DNA of 64,000 nt. It comes from Kitasatospora fiedleri (lineage in GTDB: Bacteria; Actinomycetota; Actinomycetes; Streptomycetales; Streptomycetaceae). Made by a program: the position numbers and the translations under genes. The first letter of the stretch is position 1; each line of letters begins with the position of its first letter. The notes beneath the pieces were generated by a model that worked only from the letters and a program-made list of their open reading frames with translations, searched no databases and was not told the DNA's origin. Of this stretch, positions 10,074 to 32,045 are shown one piece after another. The DNA is taken from positions 1,116,001 through 1,180,000 of the forward strand of contig NZ_OX419519.1 in NCBI RefSeq assembly GCF_948472415.1, in the 5' to 3' direction.

Positions 10074-11802
10074 CGCGTTTCCCGCCCTGGATCGGCGTCG
10101 GCGGTGTCCGTCGCGGCAGCGGTCTCCGTCCCGTCGGGGGCGTGCGCGACAGCGGCGGGGCGCGTCGCGGCGGCGGGGTACGTCGCGGCGGCGGTCTCCG
10201 TCACGGGGACGGCGGGGAACTCCGCCTCCTCGGGGTTCTCCGTCCCGGCGGGGATCGCGGGCGGCTCCGGGGAGATGCTGAAGGCGATCCGGGCGCCCTC
10301 GCGGTGGTACGGGTCGACGGCGATCGTCCCGCCGTGGAACTCGACGATCTTCTTGCACATGGCCAGGCCGATGCCGCTGCCCGCGTAGGCGTCCTTGGTG
10401 TGCAGGCGCTGGAAGATCACGAACACCTTGACGGCGAACTCCGGGGGATGCCGATGCCGTTGTCGGTGACGGCGAAGTGCCACAGCTCGTCGCGCTGTTC
10501 GGCCGAGACGTGGATGCGCGGGGCGATGCCGGGGCGGCGGAACTTGACGGCGTTGCCGATCAGGTTCTGCCAGAGCATCCCCATCTGGGTGAGGTCGGCG
10601 AACAGGGTGGGCAGCGGGTCGTGGGTGATCTCCGCGCCCGACTCCGCGATGCTGTCGCTGAGCACGTCCAGGGTGCGCTCCAGCACCTTCTCCAGGTCGA
10701 CGTCCTGGTGGTTGCGGTGCACCCGGCCGACCCGGGAGAAGTCCAGCAGGTCGTTGATCAGGACCTGCATGCGGTTGGCGCCGTCGACCGCGAAGTCGAT
10801 GTACTGGTCCGCCCGGGCGTCGAGTTGGCCGCCGTAGCGGCGCTGGAGCAGCTGGGTGAAGCTGGAGACCTTGCGCAGCGGCTCCTGGAGGTCGTGCGAG
10901 GCGACGTAGGCGAACTGCTCCAACTCGGCGTTGGAGCGCTGGAGGTCGGCGGCCTGGGCGTCCAGGCGCAGGCGGGCCTGCTCGGTGAACGCCAGCTCCC
11001 GCACCAGCCGTCGGCGCATGGAGTCGATCTCGGCGCTGAGGCGGCGCAGGTCGGCGGGGCCGCTGCCGACGATGGAGTGATCGAAGTCACCCGCGGCGAT
11101 CCGGCGGGCGTCCGCGCCGAGCCGCTCCAGCGGGTCGGTGATGCCGCGGCGCAGTCCTTCGAAGACCAGCACGGTCAGCACGGCGATGACGACCGCGATC
11201 GCGGTGAACACCCAGTTGCGGACCCGGGTGGTGGCCAGCAGGTCGGCCCGGGCGGCGGCGCGGTCGGCCCGCAGGTGGTCCTGCTGGCGGGTCAGTTGGA
11301 CCCGGATGCGGTCGAAGGCGGCCTTGCCCGCGTCGGCCGAGGCGGCGGCCTGCGGCACGGGCGCGCCGGGGGGCGCGGCGGCGATCGGCTCGGCGATCTG
11401 CTGCTGCCACTGCCCGACCGCGGCCTGGACCGCGGCGAGGTCGGCGAGCCCGGAGTCGTTGCCGTGCAGGAGGCCGAGCAGGGTGTCGGTGTGGGTCTTC
11501 TGGTCGACCAGGCCCTGCCGGTAGGGCTGGAGGAGCTCCGGGTTGCCGCTGAGGGCGTAGCCCCGGATGCCGGTCTCCTGGTTGAGCAGCACCGATTCCA
11601 GGCGGAACGCGGTGGACATGGCGGGCGAGCGGGTGTCCACCAGGTTCGTGCTGATGTCCTGGGTGCGCTCCAGCGCCCAGAACCCCGCGACACCCAGCAG
11701 TGCCAGGACGGCCAGGGACAGCGCGGCACCCACCCGCAGCCAGCGCCTGGTCGTCCACGTGGACAGCGAGCGTCCGCGAGTCGGCCTGCGGTCGTCGTGC
11801 AT
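10070..11802 (-). CDS. CHASE3-HAMP sensor histidine kinase, one frameshift
   Basis: Membrane sensor kinase with TM1 at about 23-45, an extracytoplasmic CHASE3-like helical domain (50-190, with ETGIRGYALSGN typical of CHASE3), TM2 at 197-215, HAMP to about 270, coiled coil, HisKA with H303 in ASHDLQEPLRK, then HATPase (NLIGNAVKFR, VTDNGIGI). The frame breaks at 10443-10447, a five-G run. One more base joins GIGI to PPEFAVKVFVIFQRLH and GSGIGLAMCKKIVEFHGG, followed by an Ala/Thr/Pro-rich tail to 10070. Phytochrome-type and CHASE3 kinases share this HisKA subclass. Translationally coupled to the phosphatase gene. Confidence 0.88.
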
Positions 11803-30108: not shown

Positions 30109-30447
30109 TCAGGACTCCCCGCCCGCCGGGGCGGCCCCGCCGGCCTCGGTCCAGACGGACTCCCAGTGCCCCACCCGCCGATGCCCGTACCGCTCGCCCC
30201 GGGCCAGCGCCACCAGGACGGCCGCCGCGAGGTCCCACTCGTGCATCTCCCGCACCCGCACGGACACCCGTACCGCGCCCCCGGCCGCCCACGTCACGGA
30301 GGGCCGCTCCCCGGTCAACTCCCGTAGTTCCAAGGCTGTTCGCCCGGCCCAGGCCCGCAAATCCCCTTCCTTGCAACGCACTCCGACGCCCACGCCTCCG
30401 CCACCGACGAGCGGCGGCTCGGCACCCTTCTGCTGACTCTCCGTCAT
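30109..30447 (-). CDS. Hypothetical protein, first gene of NUDIX operon
   Basis: A 112-residue protein not recognised. The N-terminal 30 residues are Gly/Val-rich, then alternating strands and helices (DLRAWAGRTALELRELTGE, AVRVSVRVREMHEWDLAAAVLVALARGER). ATG at 30447 has GGAG 8 to 9 bases upstream. Divergent from the XRE-DUF397 regulator, 177 bases away. XRE/DUF397 genes often neighbour small genes of unknown role in streptomycetes, so joint regulation is possible but not shown. Confidence 0.65.
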   Translation of the reverse strand: MTESQQKGAEPPLVGGGGVGVGVRCKEGDLRAWAGRTALELRELTGERPSVTWAAGGAVRVSVRVREMHEWDLAAAVLVALARGERYGHRRVGHWESVWTEAGGAAPAGGES

Positions 30448-30624
30448 GCCCTTTTCTCCGCACTGCTGTTCGCATCCTGCGCCGATTACTTTCCGTGCCC
30501 CAATCCTCACCGTTCGGCGCTACGCTGAGAAGCGCCGGCTCGTTGGCCTGCGAGGTCACAACGTCCGGACATGCGGCTGTCGCCGCGCACACCATCACGA
30601 GACGTTTCAGGGGAAGGGGCAGAC

Positions 30625-31662
30625 GTGGCCTGGCAGGAACGCGAGGTGAATCCGAGCCGGAGCGCACGGCACTTCTACGGTGCCGAGACGCGGCGGCTGC
30701 GCAGCGAACGGGGGTGGGCCCTGGCCAAGCTGGCCGCCGAGGTCCACTACTCCCCGAGCACGCTGTCCCGGGTCGAGAACGGCGACATCAAGGTGCCGCT
30801 CGGCCTCTCGGAGGAGCTGGACCGGGTCTTCGAGACGGACGGCTTCTTCCTCCGGCTGCTCCCGCTCGCCCGGCAGGAGGTGCACCCGGCGAAGTACCAG
30901 GAAATCCTGGCCACTGCCGATCAGGCTGTCAGTTACGAGTCCTACAGCCCGATGGTGCACGGGCTGCTGCAAACCCCGGCGCACGCACGGCGGTTGCTCC
31001 GCGCGGGCGATCCGTTCGCGTCGGAGGAGGAGGTCGAGGAGCTGGTCCGGGCCAGGATCGGTCGGCAGCTGCGGCTGCACAGCCAGGAGTGCAAGTACTG
31101 GTTCATCCTGGACGAGTCCGCCATCCGCCGGGTGGTCGGCAACCGGGCGGAGATGGCGGAGCAGTTGCGGGCGATCCTGGAGATCGCGGAGCAGCCCAAC
31201 GTGATCGTGCAGGTGCTGCCGTTCGCCGCCGGGGCCCACTCCGAGTACGCCGCGATGTCGCTGCTCACCCTGCAGGACGGGCAGCAGATCGCCTACGAGG
31301 AGAGCAGCCGCGCCGGAATGATCTTCGACGAAACCCAGGATGTCGGGAAACGGCAGTCGCTCTACAATCTGCTCAGGGCCCGGGCGTTGTCCCCGGAGGA
31401 CACCGAGCTCCTGATCAGATCCGCGCTGGAAGGACTAGCACCGATGCAGCCCAACGACTCCCGCACCTCCACCGAGCAGCACCAGTGGCGGAAGAGCAGC
31501 TACAGCAACGGCGACGGCGGTGAGTGCATCGAGGTGGACGACGCCCACCCCGGCCACGTCCGGGACTCCAAGGACCCCAGCGGTCCCGTCCTCGCCTTCG
31601 CCCCCGCCGACTGGGCGGCCTTCGTCACCGCGACCGCCTCCGGGGAGTTCGGCAACGTCTGA
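30625..31662 (+). CDS. XRE-type regulator with DUF5753 fused in frame to DUF397
   Basis: A 345-residue protein from GTG 30625 (GGGAAGGGG upstream). Residues 14-70 are an XRE HTH (RRLRSERGWALAKLAAEVHYSPSTLSRVENG, in two halves). About 85-265 is the DUF5753 ligand-like domain (YSPMVHGLLQTPAHARRLL, LDESAIRRVVGN, VQVLPFAAGAHSEY). About 283-343 is a full DUF397 domain (WRKSSYSNGDGGECIEVDD, VRDSKDPSGPVLAFAPADW). Normally DUF397 is a separate small gene overlapping the end of the regulator. Here no stop separates them, and M274 (31444) may be the relic start. Such regulators act in antibiotic and development control. Confidence 0.85.
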   Translation: MAWQEREVNPSRSARHFYGAETRRLRSERGWALAKLAAEVHYSPSTLSRVENGDIKVPLGLSEELDRVFETDGFFLRLLPLARQEVHPAKYQEILATADQAVSYESYSPMVHGLLQTPAHARRLLRAGDPFASEEEVEELVRARIGRQLRLHSQECKYWFILDESAIRRVVGNRAEMAEQLRAILEIAEQPNVIVQVLPFAAGAHSEYAAMSLLTLQDGQQIAYEESSRAGMIFDETQDVGKRQSLYNLLRARALSPEDTELLIRSALEGLAPMQPNDSRTSTEQHQWRKSSYSNGDGGECIEVDDAHPGHVRDSKDPSGPVLAFAPADWAAFVTATASGEFGNV

Positions 31663-31678
31663 ACCCGGCGAGCAACCA

Positions 31679-31714
31679 CGGCCCCGTTCCACCCGCCTGG
31701 GTGGAACGGGGCCG
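31679..31714 (+). terminator. Strong terminator after the XRE-DUF397 gene
   Basis: A perfect 16-bp stem, CGGCCCCGTTCCACCC (31679-31694) and complement (31699-31714), with a 4-base loop, 16 bases past the stop. Confidence 0.85.
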
Positions 31715-31844
31715 ATGCCGTGTCAGGAGGCTTTCCCTACGCAGAGGTTGACCATGTTGCGGACGGCCGGGACACCGGTCCGGCCGGCGCCGCCCACGGC
31801 GCGGGCGGGGTTTCCGGCCGCGTCCGGGCTGGAAGGATTCGGCC

Positions 31845-32045
31845 ATGACGACACCTGGTACCGCCCGATGGCGGAAGAGCAGCTACAGCAACGGCGACGG
31901 CGGCGGATGCATCGAGGTGGACGACGCCCACCCCGGCCACGTCCGGGACTCCAAGGACCCCGGCGGCCCCGTCCTCGCCTTCGCCCCCGCCGACTGGGCG
32001 GCCTTCGTCACCGCGACCGTGTCCGGGGAGTTCGGCAACGTCTGA
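31845..32045 (+). CDS. DUF397 small protein (second copy)
   Basis: A 66-residue DUF397 protein. From WRKSSYSNGDGG onward it is almost identical to the DUF397 tail of the upstream regulator (differences G/E, G/S, V/A), including the DNA, so the module was duplicated recently. ATG at 31845 has GGAAGG 8 bases upstream. It is separated from the first copy by a strong terminator, so it must have its own promoter or be expressed by readthrough. DUF397 proteins usually partner an XRE-DUF5753 regulator; the partner here is presumably the fusion upstream. Confidence 0.88.
   Translation: MTTPGTARWRKSSYSNGDGGGCIEVDDAHPGHVRDSKDPGGPVLAFAPADWAAFVTATVSGEFGNV

Follow-up and report, generated by a model that had tools for sequence, protein, structure and literature searches.

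Results

The window analyzed here, a 64,000-nt stretch of the 8.07-Mb genome of Kitasatospora fiedleri (contig NZ_OX419519.1, positions 1,116,001 to 1,180,000), carries a regulator gene whose single open frame runs from an XRE-type HTH through DUF5753 into DUF397; a free DUF397 gene follows it, and two small ORFs diverge from it (Table 1). The 345-residue frame had been put forward in a preliminary description made from the sequence alone, and its coordinates were confirmed, all three domains scoring above the Pfam cut-offs (HTH_31, E 3e-11, 43.7 bits; DUF5753, E 6e-41, 140.6 bits; DUF397, E 7e-22). An XRE-type HTH at the N terminus followed by DUF5753 is the arrangement that defines WhiJ, and the DUF397 domain has the conserved KSSYS, C(I/V)EV, and VRDSK motifs of the BldB family; the two parts occupy one uninterrupted frame, which is kept in relatives. 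Against the model for the Sco1979 family regulator (NF058600), the fused protein reached 113 bits, below the curated cut-off of 350. By domain content, the window locus joins a WhiJ-type (XRE-DUF5753) regulator to a BldB-type (DUF397) partner. An AlphaFold2 model of the fused protein (pLDDT 77, pTM 0.54), built from only 9 sequences, contained a low-confidence linker at residues 275 to 283 and no confident docking of DUF397. The best matches in a fold search with this model were XRE HTH domains, none with E <0.001, and there was no convincing match for DUF5753 or DUF397; searching by sequence, we found no solved structure of a relative.

Table 1. Features of the fused regulator locus (positions in the window)
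Feature	Position	Strand	Basis or remark
Second divergent small ORF, 123 aa	29737..30108	-	No family match; adjoins the fusion in G022 and G042 too
Divergent small ORF, 112 aa	30109..30447	-	No Pfam/NCBIfam match; adjoins the fusion in G022 and G042 too
Conserved block of divergent intergenic region, candidate promoter/operator of regulator	30488..30534	.	Kept in G022 and G042
Fused regulator gene, 345 aa (XRE HTH + DUF5753 + DUF397)	30625..31662	+	GTG start behind AGGGGAAGGGGC; orthologous fusions in G022 and G042
HTH_31 (XRE) DNA-binding domain, residues 19-73	30679..30843	+	Pfam profile match
DUF5753 domain, residues 92-265	30898..31419	+	Pfam profile match
TACAAT, putative -10 box of nested DUF397 promoter	31363..31368	+	Conserved column; inferred
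GGAAGGA, Shine-Dalgarno (SD)-like site of old DUF397 gene, retained	31428..31434	+	Sequence comparison
Nested ORF, putative free DUF397, 72 aa	31444..31662	+	Retained ATG, 9 nt after GGAAGGA; product inferred
Fused DUF397 domain, residues 287-336	31483..31632	+	Pfam profile match
Perfect GC-rich hairpin between fused and free gene (-39 kcal/mol, z -5.6)	31680..31713	+	Terminator-like, no T run
GGAAGGA, ribosome-binding site of free copy, 7 nt before ATG	31831..31837	+	Sequence
Free DUF397 gene, 66 aa	31845..32045	+	DUF397, E 7e-22 in fused copy, E 7e-23 here

A survey of other genomes, which the preliminary description had proposed, was carried out over 70 genomes of the genus and recovered the same full-length frame, free of stops, in G022 (72% identity) and G042 (68% identity). 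Upstream of the fusion, both have the ROK gene and the two small divergent ORFs, and G022 has DJC28, MerR, and SulP downstream. The divergent intergenic region, inspected by eye, gave no clear match to the WhiJ9-type operator repeats (CGNNCTCAAC), only the conserved block. The ORF at 30109-30447 is placed as iosA is beside whiJ9, a likeness of position only.

The origin of the fusion becomes apparent from the closest unfused relatives. A paralogue in the same genome (C1:2971340, 66% identity) is an ordinary pair and ends in TGA, and related regulators in G011 and G013 are likewise unfused, a TGA preceding DUF397 or overlapping it. In this group, the DUF397 ATG of an ordinary pair overlaps the end of the regulator gene, spaced as GGAAGGA-N10-ATG (GGAAGGACTGGCTTCTGATG in the paralogue), while the fusions of the window, G022, and G042 are spaced as GGAAGGA-N9-ATG (GGAAGGACTAGCACCGATG in the window). 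Because the spacer measures 9 nt instead of 10 nt, the regulator is in frame with DUF397, and the old DUF397 start (ATG 31444) shares the frame of the GTG at 30625. On this comparison, the one-base-shorter spacer is the cause of the fusion. The preliminary description had named a sequencing error as its own undoing; although one base is all that separates the fusion from unfused pairs, loss of the stop through an error in sequencing or assembly is ruled out by the same 9-nt spacer and open frame at the same site in three independent genomes.

In a tree of 84 regulators, the window trio is a supported clade nested among unfused relatives, which sets its fusion apart from the large, older clades of fused genes; 5 changes of state are needed over this tree, and its starred branches force at least 3. 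Most simply, the fusions of the window, G022, and G042 would represent one event in a common ancestor. Over the whole gene, synonymous divergence within the trio is moderate (NG86 dS, 0.34 to 0.47) and dN/dS is about 0.33 to 0.53, with the frame intact over 345 codons and the domains complete. Fusions of the XRE-DUF397 kind are common in the genus and already known. Our set comprised 51 distinct fused frames of the genus, taken from the search list and selected as fused; the genome studied here has another at C1:3096368, and a scan of genome contigs gave only two loci. Outside the genus, fusions were rare in the samples searched: two were found in a family-wide sample of 150 genomes (E 1e-40), and a phylum-wide sample gave no fused frame without a stop. 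Some ordinary pairs (L049, G007:C1:7826539, G026:C360:713, and others) apparently lie in one frame, parted by a single TGA; in such pairs, stop loss or readthrough would fuse regulator and DUF397. A further locus of the host genome (G000:C1:4569422-4570690) has a single regulator followed by four consecutive DUF397 domains.

The free DUF397 gene of the window had been described as a nearly identical and recent duplicate. The near-identity holds (93% protein and 96% DNA identity between fused and free cores over 57 codons); simple recency does not, as two relatives have a second DUF397 at the same position. In G022, the free DUF397 there has the N terminus MTAPDSARW, against MTTPGTARW in the window. 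In G042 (L056, 5978-6290), the second copy is a tandem duplicate of the nested cistron only, which carries the SD, ATG, and DUF397 and starts upstream of TACAAT, within the 3′ portion of the regulator; such a duplicate gives the nested unit the look of an independent cistron. The fused core of the window has 84 to 87% DNA identity to the fused orthologues, and its free core has 80 to 83% to the other free copies. Since each window core is closer to the other than to its own orthologues, gene conversion (homogenization) or re-duplication is likely to explain the pair better than a single recent duplication. Given the terminator-like hairpin between them, the fused and free genes may be separate transcripts.

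An in-frame start with a ribosome-binding site lies inside the fused gene, the pattern expected of a gene within a gene and one that the preliminary description had overlooked. When the printed junctions were read by eye, 50 of the 51 fused frames proved to have kept an ATG or GTG in frame where the domains meet, preceded by an SD-like sequence; L105 was the exception. One alignment column holds 31 ATG and 15 GTG codons across the 51 genes, and the linker columns after it hold almost none. Codon choice at the SD follows the same line, with counts that are not independent, because the genes were selected as fused and are related: Glu is GAA in 22 cases and GAG in 2 (background GAA, 24%), Gly is GGA in 27 of 36 and GGC in none (backgrounds, 9% and 55%), and Arg is AGA in 10 of 12 (background, 1.7%). 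When 497 column-residue cells, all on the same tree, were ranked by codon bias, the Arg, Gly, and Glu cells of the SD came 1st, 7th, and 9th, respectively. Within ten fused subclades, SD codons were identical in 15 of 18 cells, compared with 52% elsewhere (Fisher P = 0.006). The SD site is also where the gene has its longest run of identical sequence across the window trio (25 nt, 31413-31437), and in the trio codons are identical at 10 of 10 conserved junction residues versus 100 of 162 in the regulator part. The rare codons AGA and CTA stand beside the ribosome-binding site (31415-31437 in the window) in all three orthologous fusions.

Other measures were less discriminating. The SD pairing energy did not exceed that of synonymous recodings of the same residues, and stronger-than-expected pairing therefore fails as proof of a nested start, the encoded residues alone giving it; the case consequently rests on exact codon choice and conservation. 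A sliding-window scan of synonymous identity was not specific to the junction, and predicted structure of the ribosome-binding region was not above that of shuffled sequences.

A second conserved element lies farther upstream. The motif TA[TC]NAT occurs about 81 nt before the nested start in 48 of the 51 fused genes, and unfused XRE genes have TACGAT at the same column in 29 of 33. At this -10-like motif, Asp is encoded by GAT in 39 of 40 cases (background, 19%) and Tyr by TAT in 34 of 49 (background, 13%), and the ten fused subclades have identical codons in 16 of 19 cells there, compared with 52% elsewhere (Fisher P = 0.004). The motif is absent from nine DUF5753 regulators of the host genome that have no DUF397 gene directly behind them. 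DUF397-partnered regulators of the same genome (L113-L131) carry a Tyr-Asp pair toward the end of DUF5753, encoded mostly as TAC GAT. Conservation of this Tyr-Asp could reflect either a protein contact or a promoter. We recognized no -35 element upstream of the motif, and a consensus promoter scan found no internal promoter; the -10-like TACAAT is conserved. Outside the genus, where the check covered two fusions only, L151 has TATGAT, AGAGGG, and ATG, along with an extra DUF397 gene downstream, and L150 has neither the SD and start nor the -10-like signal. As far as alignment can tell, the ribosome-binding site, start codon, and -10-like motif of the partner are still in place in the fused gene. 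We found no report in the literature of fused genes that keep the expression signals of the partner.

The locus has turned over among close relatives. In same-species strain G011 (Kitasatospora sp. SolWspMP-SS2h), the fused gene is gone, as are both divergent ORFs and most of the DJC28 gene; a degenerate DUF397 stub is left there beside the ROK gene (L062, G011:C4, about 10140-10460). G009 has lost the XRE part and kept only a DUF397 frame, and in G024, G027, and G041, the interval from ROK to DJC28 lacks a regulator. In G023, an in-frame deletion scar (L064, G023:C4, 2338-2595) joins HTH residues 1-58 to the DUF397 tail; the resulting open frame, 85 aa long, is preceded by an intact ribosome-binding site. 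The absence of the locus from the nearest strain, G011, together with this turnover, indicates that it is dispensable.

Discussion

In the current study, we describe a WhiJ-type regulator joined to its DUF397 partner in one chain. The fusion itself is not new. The accessible text of a 2023 report (J Bacteriol; PMC10294661) counts 129 WhiJ-BldB (XRE-DUF397) fusions of the same make-up and argues from them that WhiJ and BldB collaborate; the window gene is a further case. It is reasonable to suppose, as the preliminary description did, that the fusion reflects joint action of regulator and DUF397. In that text, however, the fusions are counted only, and it does not mention a nested start, a promoter, or an extra free copy.

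What is known of unfused pairs bears on how such a chain might work. The closest in layout is the whiJ9-bldB9-iosA locus of Streptomyces venezuelae, which, as described in the same text, also combines a WhiJ-type regulator, a DUF397 partner, and a small divergent gene, and in which the bldB9 promoter lies inside whiJ9; unlike the window gene, whiJ9 and bldB9 encode two separate proteins, and the WhiJ9 operator consensus given there is not clearly present in the window (PMC10294661). BldB does not bind DNA and hetero-oligomerizes with its paralogues; both homo- and hetero-oligomerization of these proteins appear in the text cited (PMC10294661). Scr1 and Scr2 (SCO4441/SCO4442) are an XRE-DUF397 pair, unfused in contrast to the window gene, in which Scr1 needs Scr2 to act and scr2 is served by a separate promoter; the insolubility of Scr2 prevented a demonstration of direct binding (PMC6262351). 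In unfused pairs of S. clavuligerus, DUF397 RNA and ribosome footprints are in excess over those of the XRE gene, and most DUF397 genes have extra start sites upstream (PMC8269248). The genetics of whiJ and SCO4542 suggest that the small protein relieves the action of WhiJ (PMC4255298).

On balance, we lean modestly toward reading the window gene as a two-product gene, which would yield both the 345-aa regulator, with DUF397 tethered to it, and a 72-aa free DUF397 initiated at the nested start. Free DUF397 may thus come from the fused gene itself as well, and the separate 66-aa copy downstream, which in the preliminary description may titrate or replace the fused domain, would enlarge the pool. 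Judging from work on relatives, the HTH would bind an operator located between the divergent genes, DUF397 would oligomerize and not bind DNA, and excess free DUF397 would bind the tethered domain and so set the activity of the regulator. A fusion alone would force a 1:1 ratio, and the excess would be regained through a nested start or a second gene; the tether would fix the identity of the partner, and the nested start would keep free DUF397 in excess. The Rpn genes-within-genes (RpnL/RpnS) offer a parallel, in that an internal promoter and an internal start allow their C-terminal domain to be made alone as well, and this domain acts on the full-length product (PMC10327210); Rpn, however, is a toxic nuclease of phage defense, and the likeness is one of architecture, with no kinship claimed. 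One point against a two-product gene is the free DUF397 gene next door, which may make a nested product redundant. Whether the reading extends to Kitasatospora XRE-DUF397 fusions at large, such that selection has kept the nested promoter, ribosome-binding site, and start, and that tethered plus excess free DUF397 act as a built-in stoichiometric switch, is a proposition on which we are evenly divided.

The alternative that we take most seriously, although we consider it unlikely, is that only the 345-aa protein is made and that free DUF397 comes from the free copy alone. The internal SD, ATG, and -10-like motif would then be leftovers of the unfused pair or a consequence of conserved amino acids. 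In keeping with this, the EG/RG residues by themselves give strong SD pairing, the synonymous divergence of the trio is only moderate, and L150 is fused without any nested signals. What this account fits poorly is that rare codons persist across deep fused clades at exactly the SD and -10 columns, where other codons have drifted, and that the start codon is kept within an otherwise variable linker.

We think it improbable that the locus is decaying or selfish and has no settled role, fusion and duplication being erosion by recombination among many paralogues. The stub in G011, the HTH-DUF397 deletion join in G023, the XRE loss in G009, and the three genomes with no regulator between ROK and DJC28 are what erosion would leave behind; the trio, however, has kept its frame over 345 codons with dN/dS of about 0.33 to 0.53, complete domains, and a conserved intergenic block. 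Less probable still is a type II toxin-antitoxin system, in which a DUF397 toxin would be fused to its antitoxin and the free copy would be the active toxin. Xre-DUF397, with the same two families lying side by side, was predicted to be such a system (Makarova 2009, PMC2701414), the prediction has been repeated (PMC7159879), and the locus is gained and lost rapidly; the preliminary description gave toxin-antitoxin-like action as one of two usual roles of DUF397, the other being in development. Yet Scr2 and 14 other DUF397 proteins were not toxic when overexpressed in S. coelicolor, where the pairs act as regulators (PMC6262351, PMC10364602), and PADLOC matched no family apart from a weak HTH match.

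Research on Streptomyces development and antibiotic control has long faced the question, still open, of how BldB and other DUF397 proteins influence WhiJ-type regulators, and a natural fusion provides another route by which to test the interaction. A nested start would show that the proportion of free to tethered DUF397 is important, and a one-codon mutation would separate the two forms. If the two-product reading is true, dozens of fused genes have a second product that genome annotation overlooks.
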